Of a stretch of DNA of 64,000 bases, positions 24,669 through 43,990 are shown piece by piece. The position numbers and the translations under genes are program-made. The notes beneath the pieces are model-generated. The model was not told the origin of the DNA, searched no databases, and saw only the letters and a program-made list of their open reading frames with translations. Location: contig NZ_JAJJBU010000009.1 of NCBI RefSeq assembly GCF_020905375.1, forward strand, positions 1 to 64,000, in the 5' to 3' direction. Each line of letters begins with the position of its first letter. The stretch's first letter is position 1. The stretch comes from Arthrobacter cryoconiti (GTDB lineage Bacteria; Actinomycetota; Actinomycetes; Actinomycetales; Micrococcaceae).

Positions 24669-25877
24669 ATGAATCAGCAGGCGGTCCGCCGCGCGACTAG
24701 TGCCACCTTTGTCATTTTTGCCCTCAATGGTTTCGTCTTTGCCAGCTGGGCTGCCCGGATCCCCGCCGTCACAAGGGTATTGGAGCTGACGGCGGGAGAG
24801 ATGGGATTGCTTTTGCTGACTATCGCCGCGGGCTCTGTCATTGCGCTGCCCATGGCAGGTTCGGTGGTGGCACGCGTAGGCATAGCGTCCACGATCAGGC
24901 TGGGAGGCTTTATCAGCGCTTTTGGCGGACTGATTGTTGCCGCTGGCTTGTCCTTGGGGGCAGTACCGTTGACGGGCGCAGGGCTATTCTTCTTTGGCGT
25001 AGGTATTGGGTTGTGGGACGTGGCCCAAAACGTTGAAGGTGCCTCGGTGGAACGTCATTTGGGCCGGACCATCATGCCTCGTTTTCACGCTGGCTTCAGC
25101 GGCGGCGCTTTTGTCGGGGCAGTGCTTGGTGCCGGGCTCTCAGCTATGCACGTGAGTATGTCGGAGCATTTAGTGGCCATTGTGGTCTTGGTTTGCGTGG
25201 CTATGGTGGTGGTGCCCCGGTACTTTTTGCCAGCAGCAGCTCAAGGGGATGTGAAGTCTCTGGATCCCACGACGGCTGTTCCCGTGCGCTCCACGCCCCG
25301 AAGCGCATGGACTGAGGGCCGGACCCTCATGGTGGGACTCGTGGTTCTTGGCGCAGCGCTCACAGAAGGGGCAGCCAACGATTGGATTGCCAAGGCCACA
25401 GTTGACGGCATGGGAGCCACCGAATCCGGTGGCGCGGTGATGTTCGCCGTTTTCGTGGCGTCCATGACCTTGTGTAGGTTCTTTGGCGGAGCGTTCGTTG
25501 ACGCGTACGGACGTGTGATTGTGCTCTACGCCAGTTTGGGTGCGGCACTGGCGGGACTAGTGGTGTTTGTGCTGGCCCCAAATATTTGGCTGGCCGCACT
25601 GGGTGCCGTGCTCTGGGGTGCCGGGGCGGCCATGGGCTTCCCGTTGGGAATGTCGGCAGCCGCCGACGACCCCGCCCGCGCCGCTTCCCGCGTGTCAGTG
25701 GTATCCACCATTGGTTATCTGGCTTTCCTGGCCGGTCCACCACTTTTGGGGTTTCTTGGTGACCACGTCAGCATCCGGTGGGCATTGTTGGCGATCGCCG
25801 TGGCAATCATCGCTTCCATCTTGACTGTGCCGGCTGCCAAGCCGCTCCCACGGTCAGCATTGGAAGATGCCCGCTGA
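24669..25877 (+). CDS. MFS transporter
   Basis: A 402-residue major facilitator protein with twelve hydrophobic segments in two halves. The N-terminal motif FVFASWAARIPAVTRVL and the NVEGASVERHLGRTIMPRFHAGFSGGAF segment recall the FucP/YbjJ-like branch often annotated as sugar or drug exporters. The ATG at 24669 is chosen because AGGAAG lies upstream and the 14-residue extension from 24627 lacks support. It follows the ABC-F gene by 89 bases but no shared role is visible. Substrate unknown. Confidence 0.85.
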   Translation: MNQQAVRRATSATFVIFALNGFVFASWAARIPAVTRVLELTAGEMGLLLLTIAAGSVIALPMAGSVVARVGIASTIRLGGFISAFGGLIVAAGLSLGAVPLTGAGLFFFGVGIGLWDVAQNVEGASVERHLGRTIMPRFHAGFSGGAFVGAVLGAGLSAMHVSMSEHLVAIVVLVCVAMVVVPRYFLPAAAQGDVKSLDPTTAVPVRSTPRSAWTEGRTLMVGLVVLGAALTEGAANDWIAKATVDGMGATESGGAVMFAVFVASMTLCRFFGGAFVDAYGRVIVLYASLGAALAGLVVFVLAPNIWLAALGAVLWGAGAAMGFPLGMSAAADDPARAASRVSVVSTIGYLAFLAGPPLLGFLGDHVSIRWALLAIAVAIIASILTVPAAKPLPRSALEDAR

Positions 25878-25987
25878 TCCACATCCACAATCTCCCTAGC
25901 GTGATGGCTGTTGGCACCAGGGCAGCTTCGGTGACGGATGAGTAAGGCTAAGAACAATGCCACTGGGAAGAAGGCATTTGTCCATTC

Positions 25988-26032
25988 TTGAGTCATCCAA
26001 AGGGACGACCCTGAAGTGACCCTGATTCATCC
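25988..26032 (+). promoter_or_regulatory. Candidate response-regulator operator upstream of exporter
   Basis: TTGAGTCATCCAAAGGG (25988-26004) matches 15 of 17 bases with the motif before the other exporter/kinase locus, and a second TCATCC follows at 26027-26032. A GGATGAGT at 25936-25943 gives a distant inverted half-site. The site lies about 130 bases before the exporter ATPase gene, a normal place for an activator site. Confidence 0.45.
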
Positions 26033-26133
26033 CTGAGACAGACGAAATGGACGCTGGCGTTGAGTACGGTTAGAAACAAGCGGGGATCACCCCACAGTTT
26101 CTTATCCATCAAACGCCCGAAGGGGACACACGC

Positions 26134-27084
26134 ATGATTGAGGCAGTAAACCTCGCCAAACATTATGGCGCGAAGACAGCGGTTGGCGGTGTCACCTTCA
26201 CCGTAAAGCCTGGCATGGTGACCGGCTTCTTGGGCCCCAACGGTGCCGGGAAGTCCACCACGATGCGGATGATCGTGGGGCTAGATAAGCCCACCAGCGG
26301 GACCGTGACCGTCAATGGCAAGCGTTACGTTGACCACCATGACCCGCTCCACCAGGTGGGTGCCCTGCTCGACGCCAAGGCCGTGCACACTTCGCGCAGC
26401 GCCTACAACCACCTTCTTGCCATGGCCGCAACGCACAATATTCCCACCAAGCGCGTCAACGAGGTCATTGAAATGACCGGGTTGACTTCCGTCGCCAAGA
26501 AAAGGGCTGGCGGATTCTCACTGGGCATGGGGCAGCGCCTGGGTATTGCCTCAGCGCTCTTAGGGGACCCGCAGACACTGATCTTGGATGAGCCGGTTAA
26601 TGGCTTGGACCCCGAGGGCGTGTTGTGGGTGCGTAACCTCGCCAAACATCTAGCAGGTCTGGGTAAGACGGTCTTCTTGTCCTCACACCTCATGAGTGAA
26701 ATGGCCCAAACCGCTGACCACCTGATAGTGATCGGGCGTGGACAAATCATCGCCGACGCCCCGATTGCGCAAATCCTCGCCGGAACGCAGCAGGCGAAGG
26801 TGCGGGTCAGAACCCCCGATGTCACTCGTTTGAGCCAGCTCTTGAGCGGTGAAGGTGTGCTGGTGGGCAGCAGCGAAAACGAGACCTTGGAGGTCTCGGG
26901 CGTCAATACGCATCAGATTGCCAGGATTGCCTTGGAGAACAGCGTGCTGGTATACGAACTCACGCCGCTGACCACCACTTTGGAGGAGGCATATTTCGAT
27001 CTCACCAAGGATGCCGTGGAGTACCACTCGCAAGAATTCAACAACGCCGCCGCCGCGCCGGTCGCTGCACTGAAAGGACGCTGA
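26134..27084 (+). CDS. ABC-2 type exporter ATPase
   Basis: A 316-residue ATPase: GPNGAGKST (Walker A), FSLGMGQRLGIASALLG (signature with the drug-exporter LGMxQR form), LILDEPVNGLDPEGVLW (Walker B), and the H-loop in LSSHLMSEM. The last 80 residues form the extra C-terminal domain seen in BcrA/DrrA-like ATPases, which serve peptide-antibiotic export or self-protection. GAAGGGG lies upstream of the ATG. It precedes the permease by two bases; the kinase and regulator genes follow, so all four may act together. Confidence 0.92.
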   Translation: MIEAVNLAKHYGAKTAVGGVTFTVKPGMVTGFLGPNGAGKSTTMRMIVGLDKPTSGTVTVNGKRYVDHHDPLHQVGALLDAKAVHTSRSAYNHLLAMAATHNIPTKRVNEVIEMTGLTSVAKKRAGGFSLGMGQRLGIASALLGDPQTLILDEPVNGLDPEGVLWVRNLAKHLAGLGKTVFLSSHLMSEMAQTADHLIVIGRGQIIADAPIAQILAGTQQAKVRVRTPDVTRLSQLLSGEGVLVGSSENETLEVSGVNTHQIARIALENSVLVYELTPLTTTLEEAYFDLTKDAVEYHSQEFNNAAAAPVAALKGR

Positions 27085-35006: not shown

Positions 35007-35024
35007 ACTGCCTGCAGCTTCATC

Positions 35025-35061
35025 AAAAGAGTCCGGATCCCTTGCGGGTCCGGACTCTTTT
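35025..35061 (+). terminator. Rho-independent terminator of the rpsF operon
   Basis: AAAAGAGTCCGGA (35025-35037) pairs with TCCGGACTCTTTT (35049-35061). The stem is 13 bases or more and the right arm ends in a T-run. It lies 19 bases after the rplI stop. Confidence 0.9.
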
Positions 35062-35179
35062 GCTTTAACGCCGTTGCGCCGCCGTTTGGCCGCCGTTGCG
35101 CCGCTCCGGGGCGTGCTTTTAGCCACCCGGAACAAATATTCGTTTTGCGGCATGCTCGCCACGACGGGTAAGTGAGCGA

Positions 35180-35411
35180 TTATTCACAGATACGTATATT
35201 TCTGTGGATATCTTGGGCATATACCCCATACTCGGGCCTGTCAACAGGCTCTTTTGCTAAGAAAATTTCTTTCGAAATTCCTTTCATCCACAGGACATTT
35301 TGAACGTTCGTGCAGTTCAGAGCGTATTTATTGACTTCGAAAAATACTTGTCCACACTCTTATCCCCATCCTGTGCACAAGCTGAGCCGGTTAATGCACA
35401 AGTTATCCACA
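35180..35411. other. Cluster of DnaA-box-like sites between rplI and dnaB
   Basis: Seven nonamers close to the DnaA-box consensus lie within 232 bases of AT-richer DNA: TTATTCACA (35180), TGTGGATAT (35203, reverse of ATATCCACA), TCATCCACA (35284), TTGTCCACA (35348, the actinobacterial consensus), TTATCCCCA (35360), TGTGCACAA (35372, reverse of TTGTGCACA) and TTATCCACA (35403, the perfect consensus). The intergenic gap of 583 bases is otherwise free of genes. A DnaA-binding regulatory or titration region, or an initiation-related site next to the helicase gene, is likely; which one is not shown. Confidence 0.65.
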
Positions 35412-35477
35412 GGTGTCGTGTTTAGCGGGGTTGGAAGTTCTCCAAAGAGCGTCTACGGTTGCACTGAATCCCCTCTG

Positions 35478-35500
35478 CTAACAGCCATAATTGCTGTTAG
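35478..35500 (+). promoter_or_regulatory. Hairpin in the dnaB upstream region
   Basis: CTAACAGC and GCTGTTAG form an 8-base perfect stem around a 7-base AT-rich loop, extended by CCCT/AGGG-like flanks. It lies 90 bases before dnaB and could be a leader structure or an operator. Confidence 0.35.
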
Positions 35501-35589: not shown

Positions 35590-36972
35590 ATGTCAGCGCC
35601 AGCAATGGACTCCACCAAGACGTCCCGGGAGTCGGACTTTGCCCGGACTCCTCCACAGGATCTAGTCGCTGAGCAAAGCGTCCTTGGCGGCATGATGCTC
35701 TCCAAGGACGCAATTGCCGACGTCGTAGAGGTTTTACGCGGCAACGATTTCTACCGGCCGTCCCATGAGAGCATTTACGAATCCATCATTGACCTCTACG
35801 GCCGTGGTGAACCGGCGGATGCAGTGACGGTAGCTGACGAGCTCACGAAACGTGGTGAGATTGCCAAGGCCGGTGGCGCAGCTTACCTTCACCAGCTCAT
35901 CCAGTCCGTGCCGACAGCAGCCAATGCCGGCTTCTATGCCGAAATCGTAGCCGAGCGCGCAGTGCTGCGAAGGTTGGTCACGGCCGGAACCAAGATCGTG
36001 CAGATGGGCTACGCGCAGGACGGCGAGGTTGAGGACGTCGTCAATGCCGCCCAGGCAGAGATCTTTGCTGTCGCTGAACGACGCGCCACTGAGGACTACG
36101 TGATCCTCAAGGACGTCATGGAATCCACGGTCGATGAAATCGAGGCCTCCGGTCACAAGGGCGAGGGCATGACCGGCGTGCCCACGGGCTTCTACGAATT
36201 GGACGAACTAACCAACGGCCTTCACCCGGGGCAGATGATCGTCATCGCGGCCCGACCAGCTGTTGGTAAGTCAACTTTTGCCCTTGATTGGGCTCGCTCA
36301 GCTGCCATCACTCACAACATGGCGACGGTGGTCTTCTCCTTGGAGATGGGCCGCAACGAGTTGGCGATGCGTCTCCTCGCGGCAGAAGCAACCATCAGCC
36401 TCCAAGACCTTCGCAAGGGCACCGTCAAGGACGATCAGTGGTCCAAAATCGCCACCACCATGGGCAAGATGAATGACGCCCCGCTGTTCATTGACGACTC
36501 TCCTAATATGTCGCTGATGGAAATTCGGGCAAAGTGCCGGCGTCTAAAACAACAACATGACCTCAAGCTCGTGATCTTGGACTACCTTCAGCTGATGTCT
36601 TCCGGCAAACGGGTTGAGTCGCGCCAGCAGGAAGTCTCCGAATTCTCCCGTGCGCTGAAGCTGCTGGCCAAGGAACTTCAAGTCCCCGTTGTGGCGCTCT
36701 CACAGTTGAACCGTGGCTCAGAGCAGCGCACGGATAAGCGGCCCATGGTCTCAGATCTGCGAGAATCCGGCTCGATCGAGCAGGACGCTGACATGGTCAT
36801 CCTTTTGCACCGCGAGGATATCTACGACAAAGAGTCGGCACGTGCCGGCGAGGCCGACGTCATTGTCGCCAAGCACCGCAACGGGCCCACCAAGACCATT
36901 GTGGTGGGCTTCCAGGGCCACTACTCGCGGTTCGCGAACATGGCCAACGACGGCGGTGGGAGCGGCTACTAG
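35590..36972 (+). CDS. dnaB: Replicative DNA helicase DnaB
   Basis: A 460-residue hexameric helicase. The N-terminal domain (residues 20-125) opens with PPQDLVAEQSVLGGMMLSKDAI; a linker follows; the RecA-like C-terminal domain has Walker A in ARPAVGKST (221-229), Walker B in LVILDYLQLM, and SQLNRGSEQRTDKRP with the arginine finger region. The protein is uninterrupted, with no intein, unlike in many actinobacteria. The start ATG at 35590 is the only good N-terminal choice. Preceded by the DnaA-box cluster and followed by a long palindrome. Confidence 0.97.
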   Translation: MSAPAMDSTKTSRESDFARTPPQDLVAEQSVLGGMMLSKDAIADVVEVLRGNDFYRPSHESIYESIIDLYGRGEPADAVTVADELTKRGEIAKAGGAAYLHQLIQSVPTAANAGFYAEIVAERAVLRRLVTAGTKIVQMGYAQDGEVEDVVNAAQAEIFAVAERRATEDYVILKDVMESTVDEIEASGHKGEGMTGVPTGFYELDELTNGLHPGQMIVIAARPAVGKSTFALDWARSAAITHNMATVVFSLEMGRNELAMRLLAAEATISLQDLRKGTVKDDQWSKIATTMGKMNDAPLFIDDSPNMSLMEIRAKCRRLKQQHDLKLVILDYLQLMSSGKRVESRQQEVSEFSRALKLLAKELQVPVVALSQLNRGSEQRTDKRPMVSDLRESGSIEQDADMVILLHREDIYDKESARAGEADVIVAKHRNGPTKTIVVGFQGHYSRFANMANDGGGSGY

Positions 36973-40625: not shown

Positions 40626-40718
40626 CGTTACCAATCTGTGTCGTAGGTGTGACTTGACTTACATGAGCAGTGATAATAGTTTTCAATTAGTACTCGTCAA
40701 TAAGAAACGGATTTTCAC

Positions 40719-41690
40719 ATGTCGCAATTCACGTCCCCCGTTGCAGTGCTGAACGCTGCCGGTGTCGTGAACCGCATTCAGGCCAAACTACCTGACATGC
40801 CGGCGGCCATGGCAAAAATTGGGGCGTTCTTGCTGGAACATCCGCACGCCCCTTTGGAACTTTCCATTTTGGAACTCGCCGGGCAAACTAAGACCTCCCC
40901 TGCCACTGTTACCCGGTTCTGCCGACTACTGGGCTACGCCGGATACGTCCCGTTCCGTGTGAGTGTTGCTTCCGACGCTGGCCGAAGTGACGCCCGCGAG
41001 TCTTGGAAGGTAGATATTGGCCGAGCATTTGGCCCAGACGACTCCGCTCGGGATGTTCTGAGCACTCTAGTGAACGCTCACACCCGCTCCTTAGAGGAGA
41101 CAGCAGCAGTCATGGACTTGGCGCTCATGGACAAGATTGCACGCCGGATCGCCATGTCAACGCACGTAGATATCTACGGCATTGGTGGCAGCGCTGTCAT
41201 GGCCAAGGAACTTCAATCGCGCCTGTACCGCATCGGCATCAACGCCCATCATTGGTCTGAGGTCCATGCGGGCCTGACGAGTGCGGCAATCCAGGACGCG
41301 AACTCCGTCGCCATCGGTATTTCCAATACAGGGCGTACCGAGGAGACCATTCAAATGCTGCGAGAGGCTGGGGAGGCGGGTGCCTTGACCGTGGCGCTGA
41401 GCAACAATCCTGGCTCACCACTTGCAGAGAGTGCCGACGCTGCGATCATAACTTCCGTCCATGAACAGTTTCTTCAGCCTGACGATCTGTCCGCCAAACA
41501 CGTTCAACTATTGGTTCTTGACATGATCTATCTGTTAGTCGCTCAGGTTAATTTTTCCCAGACCACCTCAAAGCTGGCCGCCTCCGCGATTGCGGTCTCG
41601 CCCCACCGGCGGCCCACTCGCGCAGCGCGTCTGGAACTGGCAAACCACCGTGGTGGGCGCAACGCGGGAACGGGCCAATCACATGTCTGA
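40719..41690 (+). CDS. RpiR-family transcriptional regulator
   Basis: A 323-residue regulator with an N-terminal HTH_6 domain (ILELAGQTKTSPATVTRFCRLLGYAGY, about residues 49-75) and a SIS sugar-phosphate binding domain (VDIYGIGGSAVMAKEL and SVAIGISNTGRTEET). The C-terminal 35 residues are basic and beyond the fold. It is likely a sensor of an amino sugar phosphate that controls the divergent kinase and the downstream importer. Its end overlaps the SIS gene by eight bases. Confidence 0.92.
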   Translation: MSQFTSPVAVLNAAGVVNRIQAKLPDMPAAMAKIGAFLLEHPHAPLELSILELAGQTKTSPATVTRFCRLLGYAGYVPFRVSVASDAGRSDARESWKVDIGRAFGPDDSARDVLSTLVNAHTRSLEETAAVMDLALMDKIARRIAMSTHVDIYGIGGSAVMAKELQSRLYRIGINAHHWSEVHAGLTSAAIQDANSVAIGISNTGRTEETIQMLREAGEAGALTVALSNNPGSPLAESADAAIITSVHEQFLQPDDLSAKHVQLLVLDMIYLLVAQVNFSQTTSKLAASAIAVSPHRRPTRAARLELANHRGGRNAGTGQSHV

Positions 41691-42515: not shown

Positions 42516-42530
42516 TGTACGAATTGTACA
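42516..42530. promoter_or_regulatory. Palindrome and GTAC array upstream of ngcE
   Basis: TGTAC-GAATT-GTACA is a perfect 15-base inverted repeat 48 bases before the binding-protein ATG. Three more GTAC tetramers follow (42536, 42552, 42571). This is the best candidate operator for the RpiR or another sugar-responsive regulator. No DasR-type site was seen. Confidence 0.45.
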
Positions 42531-42577
42531 AAGCAGTACCTTCTAGCGTTCGTACCATCTATGAAAGGCAGTACACA

Positions 42578-43990
42578 ATGAGTGTTTTGAACAAGCCGCT
42601 ACAGCGTCGTGGATTCCTTCGCGGTGCTCTGGCCACTGCTGTTCTTCTCCCCCTCGGTGGGGCCCTGGCCTCCTGCGCCGGTGGCGGCGGAACTACTTCC
42701 TCCGCCGCAGCTGGTGGCGAAGTCACCGACACCAACCCGTTCGGTGTAGCCAAGACCGGTAACCTTGACGCGGTCATCTTTAAAGGTGGTTACGGGATCG
42801 ACTACGTCGACTTCGCCGGCGCTATCCTCTCCAAGAACTTCCCGGACGTCAAGGTAAAGATCAACCCGTCCACGGACATCGCGCAGGAACTGCAGCCACG
42901 CTTCGTCGGTGGCAACCCGCCGGACTTGATCGATAACTCCGGTGAGAAGGCCATTGGTTTCAGCACTATTTTGGACCAGCTGGAGGACTTGAAGTCCGTC
43001 ACTGAGGCTAACAACCTCGAGGGCAAAAAGATTGCCGATACTTTGTACGACGGTGTTCTGGCACCGGGCACCTTTGGCGGCAAGGTTGCCGCCATCAACT
43101 ACGTGCTTACGGTGTACGCAATGTGGTACTCCAAGAGCCTGTTCGATGCCAACAGCTGGAAGGTTCCCACCACGTGGGACGAGGCCATGGCGCTTGGGGC
43201 TGAGGCGAAGAAGATGGATAAGTACCTCTTCGTGTGGGGCAAGGAAGCCGCAACGTACTACCAAGAAATGGCCATTGCCTCTGCCATTAAGGAAGGTGGG
43301 GATCAGGTTCGTCTGGACTTGGAGAACCTCAAGCCCAACGCCTGGTCCGCCCCGGCACTGCAGAGTGTCTTCGGAGCCTTGGAAAAGATTGTCGCTGCCG
43401 GTTACATAAAGCCAGGCGGTTCTGGTACCAAGTTCACTGCCGCCCAGGCTCAGTGGTCCAACAACCAGGACGGCCTGCTGTACCCCTCTGGTTCCTGGAT
43501 CGAGAACGAGATGAAGGACCAGACGAAGGCTGATTTCAAAATGACTGGTGCAGCGGTGCCTGTCGTCTCGGCCAGCCCGAAGATCGCTCAGACTGGTCTG
43601 CACTCGGCGGCCGGTGAGCCCTTCATTATCCCTTCCAAGGGTGCGAATGTTGCAGCAGGTAAGGAATTGCTGCGGACTATGCTCTCCAAGGAAGCTGCAA
43701 CCAACTTCGCGAAAACGAAGCTGGCCCCGACGGTGGTCAAGGGCACCGTTCCTGCTGACGGATTCGGTTCCACGGCGCTGGTCTCGCAGACCACATTGCT
43801 TGACAATGCCAAGAAGGACATCTTCACTTGGAACTTCATTGATCTCTACGGAATGAATGGCGACATGTTGGTTCCGTGGAACTCCTTCCTGGACGGCAAG
43901 CTTGACACCGCTGGCCTGACGAAGGCACTCCAGGCGATTACTGACAAGGTAGCCGCTGATAGCTCGGTCAAAAAGATTGAAGTGAAGTGA
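42578..43990 (+). CDS. ngcE: Sugar ABC transporter binding lipoprotein, NgcE-like
   Basis: A 470-residue family 1 solute-binding protein. The N-terminus carries a twin-arginine signal (LQRRGFLRG at residues 8-16) and a lipobox with Cys33 (LASC), so it is exported folded and lipid-anchored. The mature part has the two-lobed fold with FVGGNPPDLIDNSGEKAIGF. Similarity in layout and neighbours to NgcE of Streptomyces, which binds GlcNAc and chitobiose, supports the name. AAAGGCAG lies before the ATG at 42578. First gene of ngcEFG; no ATPase gene is present. Confidence 0.78.
   Translation: MSVLNKPLQRRGFLRGALATAVLLPLGGALASCAGGGGTTSSAAAGGEVTDTNPFGVAKTGNLDAVIFKGGYGIDYVDFAGAILSKNFPDVKVKINPSTDIAQELQPRFVGGNPPDLIDNSGEKAIGFSTILDQLEDLKSVTEANNLEGKKIADTLYDGVLAPGTFGGKVAAINYVLTVYAMWYSKSLFDANSWKVPTTWDEAMALGAEAKKMDKYLFVWGKEAATYYQEMAIASAIKEGGDQVRLDLENLKPNAWSAPALQSVFGALEKIVAAGYIKPGGSGTKFTAAQAQWSNNQDGLLYPSGSWIENEMKDQTKADFKMTGAAVPVVSASPKIAQTGLHSAAGEPFIIPSKGANVAAGKELLRTMLSKEAATNFAKTKLAPTVVKGTVPADGFGSTALVSQTTLLDNAKKDIFTWNFIDLYGMNGDMLVPWNSFLDGKLDTAGLTKALQAITDKVAADSSVKKIEVK

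Follow-up and report, generated by a model that had tools for sequence, protein, structure and literature searches.

Among the closest described counterparts of the DnaA-box cluster analysed here are those of mycobacteria. In the accessible part of the report concerned, DnaA of M. tuberculosis binds five regions, which include oriC, rpmH-dnaA, Rv0010c-Rv0011c and Rv0057 upstream of dnaB, and binding of mycobacterial DnaA upstream of dnaB is documented both in vitro and in vivo, with DnaA of M. smegmatis found at the corresponding region in the cell (PMC7738170). According to the same partial source, the M. tuberculosis DnaA variant I282T binds less at the dnaB promoter and dnaB is under-expressed (PMC7738170), which we take to favor activation. 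Caulobacter belongs to another phylum and resembles our locus in having predicted boxes upstream of dnaB, and there the gene is a member of the DnaA regulon that responds to DnaA, as far as the accessible text of that study goes (PMC8203912). On these excerpts DnaA is already known as a regulator of dnaB in Caulobacter (PMC8203912) and is indicated as one in mycobacteria (PMC7738170).

We examined a 64-kb stretch of Arthrobacter cryoconiti DNA (the window, to which positions without a contig or locus name refer). It carries a cluster of DnaA boxes at 35180-35411, between rplI and dnaB, that the original prediction had tentatively read as a datA- or DARS-like site, a DnaA-controlled dnaB promoter or an auxiliary origin. 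Our analysis favors the second of these readings and speaks against the third: to judge from the sequence, the cluster is probably a DnaA-controlled dnaB promoter module and not an origin or a datA/DARS-type site. A motif scan of the window finds exactly seven nonamers in these 232 bp with at most one mismatch to TTRTCCACA, so that the count of seven in the original prediction holds, whereas the matches with two changes that it had allowed for are not among them. The whole window has 35 such sites against 20.7 (sd 4.3) when shuffled, seven of the 35 falling inside the 232 bp. Its two perfect boxes and its AT-richer DNA (53% in the box region vs 41% in the window) are likewise borne out.

The upstream neighbor, rplI, encodes ribosomal protein L9 (34554-35006, plus strand; an open reading frame with Pfam domains Ribosomal_L9_N and _C). 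Between it and the array sits a 17-nt inverted repeat, 94% complementary (35024-35062), which is probably a terminator-like end of the rplI transcript, and a 14-nt GC-rich direct repeat is present in three copies, 11 nt apart, at 35069-35104. The array opens on the plus strand with TTATTCACA (35180-35188; aligned box in 14/24 genomes), followed by ATATCCACA, which is inverted relative to it (35203-35211, minus strand; 23/24). The upstream box of a composite module, TCATCCACA (35284-35292, plus; 16/24), precedes by 19 nt the sequence GCAGTTCAG (35312-35320, plus; column identity 0.97 in 24 genomes), which differs at one position from an element, GCAGGTCAG, that is not a DnaA box. Then come the perfect box TTGTCCACA (35348-35356, plus; 24/24), TTATCCCCA (35360-35368, plus; 19/24), TTGTGCACA (35372-35380, minus; 23/24) and the window's most promoter-proximal box, the perfect TTATCCACA (35403-35411, plus; 24/24). 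The predicted dnaB promoter (35431-35459) begins 19 nt past this last box, with the −35 hexamer TTGGAA at 35431-35436 and, after a 17-nt spacer, the −10 hexamer TACGGT at 35454-35459 (column identity 0.97), both on the plus strand. The presumed target, the replicative helicase gene dnaB, occupies 35590-36972 on the same strand (open reading frame; Pfam DnaB and DnaB_C).

Two further observations concern the gene and its leader. The predicted leader contains a hairpin at 35478-35500 (CTAACAGC and GCTGTTAG, 7 nt apart) that is not conserved among relatives in the genus alignment. The window's own dnaB is unsplit, and in seven of the 23 genus genomes (G002, G004, G005, G008, G012, G021 and G022) the dnaB matches are interrupted within open frames of 837-1250 aa, a pattern that inteins would produce.

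The boxes keep their place upstream of dnaB across the genus and much of the class. Counting nonamers with at most one mismatch, the dnaB-upstream regions of 23 genus genomes hold a mean of 8.22 boxes (reversed motif 0.17, shuffled sequence 0.37), with at least three in 23/23. The original prediction had asked whether the boxes are conserved in sister species, and they are, in all 23 of these genomes. Aligned with one sister genus (24 genomes in total), boxes, element and −10 form conserved islands with column identities of 0.81-1.0, against 0.85 for the −35, 0.66 for the leader and neighboring stretches that are 48-52% identical. Among other Actinomycetes, sampled across the class, we could score 108 of 117 genomes, those with dnaB at a contig edge or fragmented being left out, as was L151, a second dnaB-like locus of G093. 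Here the mean is 3.12 boxes (shuffled 0.15), with at least two in 88/108 and at least three in 68/108, and the reversed motif gives a mean of 0.30, with two in 3/108 and three in 0/108. The 20/108 with fewer than two boxes count against a dnaB-promoter function. In both groups the boxes peak at −500 to −100 from dnaB and other bins hold 0.0-0.2 per 100 bp, except for +400 to +600 within dnaB, where the genus alone has 0.26-0.35 per 100 bp. In G040, a genome of family f21, the boxes lie 350-600 bp from dnaB and 1.5 kb from rplI; that they keep company with dnaB despite a distant rplI supports the dnaB-promoter reading. Outside the class, where dnaB starts are approximate, at least two boxes occur in 7/40 genomes (mean 0.68).

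The mycobacterial relatives share part of this plan. Among the best 80 matches to DnaB of a Mycobacterium-like genome (one with PPE genes), which are from Mycobacteriales or close relatives, at least two boxes precede dnaB in 74/80 loci, against 5/80 for the reversed motif. The M. tuberculosis Rv0057/dnaB region and its M. smegmatis homologue match our locus in gene, position and clustered boxes, and DnaA binding is reported for them (PMC7738170). With 2-3 boxes upstream of dnaB, however, the mycobacterial relatives have fewer than are found here, and GCAGGTCAG was not found in register in any of the 80 loci. DnaA binding has been demonstrated in Mycobacteriales where the in-register element is absent, so the element is not needed for binding. 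The accessible part of the mycobacterial description mentions no module, phasing or class-wide conservation (PMC7738170). In the Mycobacterium-like family f6 (G104, G088, G071, G025, G053 and G129), alignment of the rplI-dnaB interval shows that the place of GCAGGTCAG is taken by two conserved sequences, CAACACGCCCG ... CGACACGCCG, which precede the boxes.

Many families have the boxes arranged in a rigid module that runs from a box through 19 nt, the element GCAGGTCAG, about 31 nt and further boxes to a promoter. Of 131 upstream regions, 44 contain an exact copy of GCAGGTCAG in the sense of dnaB, and these represent 15 of the 36 families, against four regions with it in the opposite orientation and none for the reversed motif; with one mismatch allowed these counts become 71, 13 and 10. 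Of 46 dnaB modules, 36 have a gap of 19 nt between the element and the box before it, and 39 have 31-32 nt between the element and the box after it, counts that are partly circular in that the modules were picked for an in-register box on at least one side, which does not apply to distances to the −35. Nowhere in the 516 kb surveyed in this genome, apart from the window site, is the element flanked on both sides by box sequence in register. Genome-wide, the pattern of a box, 19 or 20 nt and GCAGGTCAG is found in 108/394 class genomes and the reversed pattern, by hand count, in 56/394, which means that many of the matches are chance. At the window site the element carries one mismatch and two promoter-proximal boxes are degenerate, which weighs against the dnaB-promoter reading.

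The arrangement also ends at a conserved promoter. We derived the predicted dnaB promoter from the genus alignment, a generic promoter scan of the region having returned a minus-strand site only. The form TTGNNN-16/18-TANNNT lies beside the last box in 23/23 genus genomes (3.4% of shuffles) and in 37/88 others (1.8% of shuffles), and that no promoter of this tested form was found in 51/88 non-genus genomes and 18/46 dnaB modules counts against the dnaB-promoter reading. Within the genus, the last box lies 5 nt before the −35 in 12/23, inside the promoter spacer in 7/23 and 19 nt off in 4/23, including the window; in 18 of the 37 non-genus promoters the gap to the −35 is 4-5 nt, and seven genomes of family f21 follow the same plan (box, 5 nt, TTGGCT-17-TANNNT). 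Boxes that sit next to a predicted promoter, in an arrangement conserved among relatives, are what a DnaA-regulated promoter should display.

The distance from the element to the −35, measured in 28 of the 46 dnaB modules and in 19/19 modules with exact GCAGGTCA that precede the RNA described below, is always 119-121, 130-132, 142 or 151-153 bp, and 119 bp in the window. Over the 26 combinations of family, locus type and distance that differ from one another, a period of 10.7 bp fits best, with an R of 0.92 that 0 of 5000 uniform draws reached; taking only the smallest value from each of 15 families leaves 119-121 and 130-132, with R 0.91 and again 0/5000. Loci added later, with one element mismatch allowed, gave 132, 141, 141, 141, 142, 143, 151 and 152; at one further locus the element stands out of register, at 23. 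In sequence terms, the distance between element and promoter is thus one of whole helical turns. Such phasing would be needed by a bound complex that contacts RNA polymerase from a single side of the DNA, and neither titration nor an origin would need it. Together, boxes that stay with dnaB, that end at a conserved promoter and that belong to a module phased to it support the idea, put forward originally, of a DnaA-controlled dnaB promoter.

In part of the class a similar module also precedes a predicted small RNA. Of 30 listed loci with a box, 19 or 20 nt and GCAGGTCAG, nine are with dnaB, eight combine the module and a near-consensus promoter with a long hairpin, one (L360) was matched later by the RNA model and 12 have neither dnaB nor the hairpin RNA. 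The RNA is predicted to be a single hairpin of about 80 nt with a near-invariant loop, GCAAGGGGAAGGC (loci L364-L393 and L334; for example L364:1501-1580, plus strand). The first eight hairpins measure 74-84 nt and start 7-8 nt past the −10, and at the one RNA locus inspected, genes for a YgjP-like metallopeptidase and an enoyl-CoA hydratase adjoin. Base pairing of the hairpin is supported by 96.4% of cells being paired and 12 of 19 pairs having changed on both sides, with 0/500 shuffles as high, although relatedness of the sequences can inflate this statistic. Rfam 15, searched with the box region, the full window and the sequences of 22 RNA loci, returned no above-threshold match, and two sub-threshold matches were of the kind expected by chance.

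Of 296 class genomes, 98 have a match to a model built from the eight loci. Among its 30 best-scoring additional RNA loci, TTGAC-17/18-TANNNT stands at the same place in 30/30, boxes occur within 260 bp upstream in 26/30 (reversed motif 0) and an element with no more than one mismatch is present in 23/30, in 16 cases at −167 to −170. Selection via the motif accounts for seven of the 30, and the remaining 23 have boxes in 19 and the element in 16. Twenty further loci have the promoter in 20/20, boxes in 10/20 and the element in 9/20, eight of them in register. Over all RNA loci examined, the near-consensus promoter is present in 50/50 and DnaA boxes lie upstream in 36/50. That the module also stands before a second predicted promoter supports the promoter-control reading. 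In family f28, with genomes of 1.3-2.2 Mb, 11/11 RNA loci are without the in-register module, and the persistence of the RNA there argues against a universal link between the two. The f28 loci, 176-251 kb from dnaA, had been considered as origin-distant modules and were dropped, as they comprise RNA and promoter with no module. The RNA model finds nothing in the window's own genome, and in 39 chosen genomes, including the window's genus, Mycobacterium-like genomes and f21, it gives six weak, shortened matches (E 0.004-0.08) that we did not count.

Rv3843c-RVnc0040, which completes the five regions bound by DnaA in M. tuberculosis, takes its name in part from a non-coding RNA (PMC7738170). MTS2975, between Rv3843c and Rv3844, is an RNA confirmed by Northern blot and lower in stationary phase, according to a second source available in part (PMC3207917). 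RVnc0040, which may or may not be the RNA described as MTS2975, offers a parallel to the hairpin RNA, and the hairpin model has no match in six genomes of that family.

The window site is not the only place where boxes gather in this genome. We surveyed 516 kb of it (14%), made up of the window, contig C56 and a further 20 segments, each of 20 kb, picked partly to contain pairs of perfect boxes; in the other 86% perfect boxes only were counted. The 516 kb hold 232 boxes, or 0.45 per kb and about 0.11 per 250 bp (reversed motif 92), and at least three boxes per 250 bp are found elsewhere only on C56, at 25795-26159 (9 and 4 boxes), 42522-42680 (6) and 40690-40888 (5). The whole genome has 90 perfect boxes against 21 for the backward pattern, an excess far beyond the few clusters. 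dnaA itself lies on C56, a different contig from the window. The cluster at 40690-40888 is upstream of dnaA, between it and a dnaN-like open reading frame that we take, by eye, to be dnaN, and oriC usually lies between these two genes. The cluster at 42522-42680 is on the opposite flank of dnaA, where we would expect rpmH.

The remaining array, at C56:25795-26159 (L004 5795-6159), is denser than the window cluster, which ranks second within the 516 kb, and is adjoined by flavin-reductase-like, rhomboid and cyclophilin-type isomerase (ppiA) genes. At least 10 boxes at near-fixed spacing make up this ppiA-side array in 22/22 genus loci, from 22 of 23 genomes, that were located via the rhomboid protein. 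Beyond the family, the rhomboid gene is directly followed by 3-4 boxes in 3/3 order-level genomes tested, and three mycobacterial genomes and an f21 genome show no such cluster of at least three boxes. In M. tuberculosis ppiA adjoins Rv0010c, and the array may correspond to the Rv0010c-Rv0011c site. The window cluster and the three on C56 resemble four of the five DnaA-bound regions listed for M. tuberculosis in the accessible part of that report (PMC7738170).

Among the other readings, the one that survives best is that the cluster titrates DnaA near the origin and so delays re-initiation, with dnaB adjoining it incidentally; we consider this unlikely. The high density of boxes relative to the 516-kb background would suit it, and any cluster that binds DnaA must titrate to some degree. 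Extra-oriC clusters near the origin of S. coelicolor, D78, H24 and H69, are reportedly known for titration and not for promoter control, and titration is said to have been proposed for such clusters in Streptomyces; like the window site, they are actinomycete clusters outside oriC. Position fits as well, dense boxes near the origin being what titration predicts: dnaA and dnaB are 48-83 kb apart in the nine genus genomes with both on one contig and 22-94 kb apart in 35/35 Actinomycetes measured. A search for Actinomycetes with dnaB far from dnaA found none among these 35, so that linkage to the gene and linkage to the origin are confounded within the class. Outside it, boxes are absent in six genomes with dnaB 224-890 kb from dnaA, as titration would have it, but where dnaB is near dnaA boxes are mostly missing too (at least two in 1/8 genomes). 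Titration moreover requires no promoter in fixed register, no helical phasing and no conserved non-DnaA element, and G085 has, at 1.37 Mb from dnaA, an RNA locus that combines two boxes with an element bearing one mismatch and placed 141 bp from the −35, a single case which suggests that the module need not lie near the origin. Titration may instead be a side effect of the dnaB control region.

A datA- or DARS-like site that alters the nucleotide state of DnaA is, in our view, improbable. Partial descriptions of E. coli datA and DARS show ordered DnaA boxes outside oriC, as here, and the fixed order and spacing, together with a conserved element that possibly binds a partner protein, would be in keeping with such a site. 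datA and DARS carry binding sites for IHF or Fis and act on the nucleotide state of DnaA, and promoter phasing is not known to be part of their description, whereas the site studied here is fixed in position and phased next to a gene promoter. Still less can be said for an auxiliary replication origin, which we regard as very improbable: boxes are clustered in AT-rich DNA, but the GC skew check advised in the original prediction shows no change of sign at the site (0.036 and 0.044 on its two sides), another cluster occupies the usual place of oriC, from the dnaN-like frame to dnaA, and a similar module precedes the RNA promoter. A chance cluster of nonamers as common as these (232 in 516 kb) can practically be dismissed, the Poisson probability of at least seven per 250 bp on the 516-kb background being 4e-11 and six of the seven being matched in the alignment by a box in 16 or more of the 24 genomes amid DNA that is 48-52% identical.

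Taken as a promoter module for dnaB, the control region most likely lets DnaA set the supply of helicase. We envision a scenario in which DnaA binds the boxes around a second protein at GCAGGTCAG, and in which this complex, always facing the same side of the DNA as seen from the −35, would contact RNA polymerase and thereby couple helicase supply to the level of the initiator. Boxes, element, promoter match, spacing, phasing and conservation can be read from the DNA itself; that DnaA binds in this organism, that a second protein occupies GCAGGTCAG and that the net effect at ordinary DnaA levels is activation are what we infer from them. Activation would suit boxes that end 4-5 nt before the −35, and a box inside the promoter, as in 7/23 genus genomes, suits repression. 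Activation at ordinary levels of DnaA and repression at high levels would fit both observations, the direction of control being the weakest step of the proposal.

The module architecture, the element, the phasing and the RNA appear to be new. We found no report of a class-wide module, of the phasing or of this RNA in a search of open-access papers that did not use the letters of the element and left subscription papers mostly outside. In the papers seen, little appears to be known of the way in which Actinomycetes match the supply of replisome components to initiation. The module predicts that DnaA has a partner, which would bind at GCAGGTCAG, and it connects DnaA with a small RNA that is conserved. 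It also suggests that the mycobacterial extra-oriC DnaA sites belong to an older shared set and are not a peculiarity of that lineage. Tentatively, and as a proposal that could well prove right or wrong, the DnaA regulon of Actinomycetes may use one enhancer-like module, with boxes in rigid register with a factor at GCAGGTCAG and an action on RNA polymerase from a constant side of the helix, at dnaB in many families and at the ~80-nt RNA in part of the class. If so, initiator activity would be read out as helicase supply and as a regulatory RNA.
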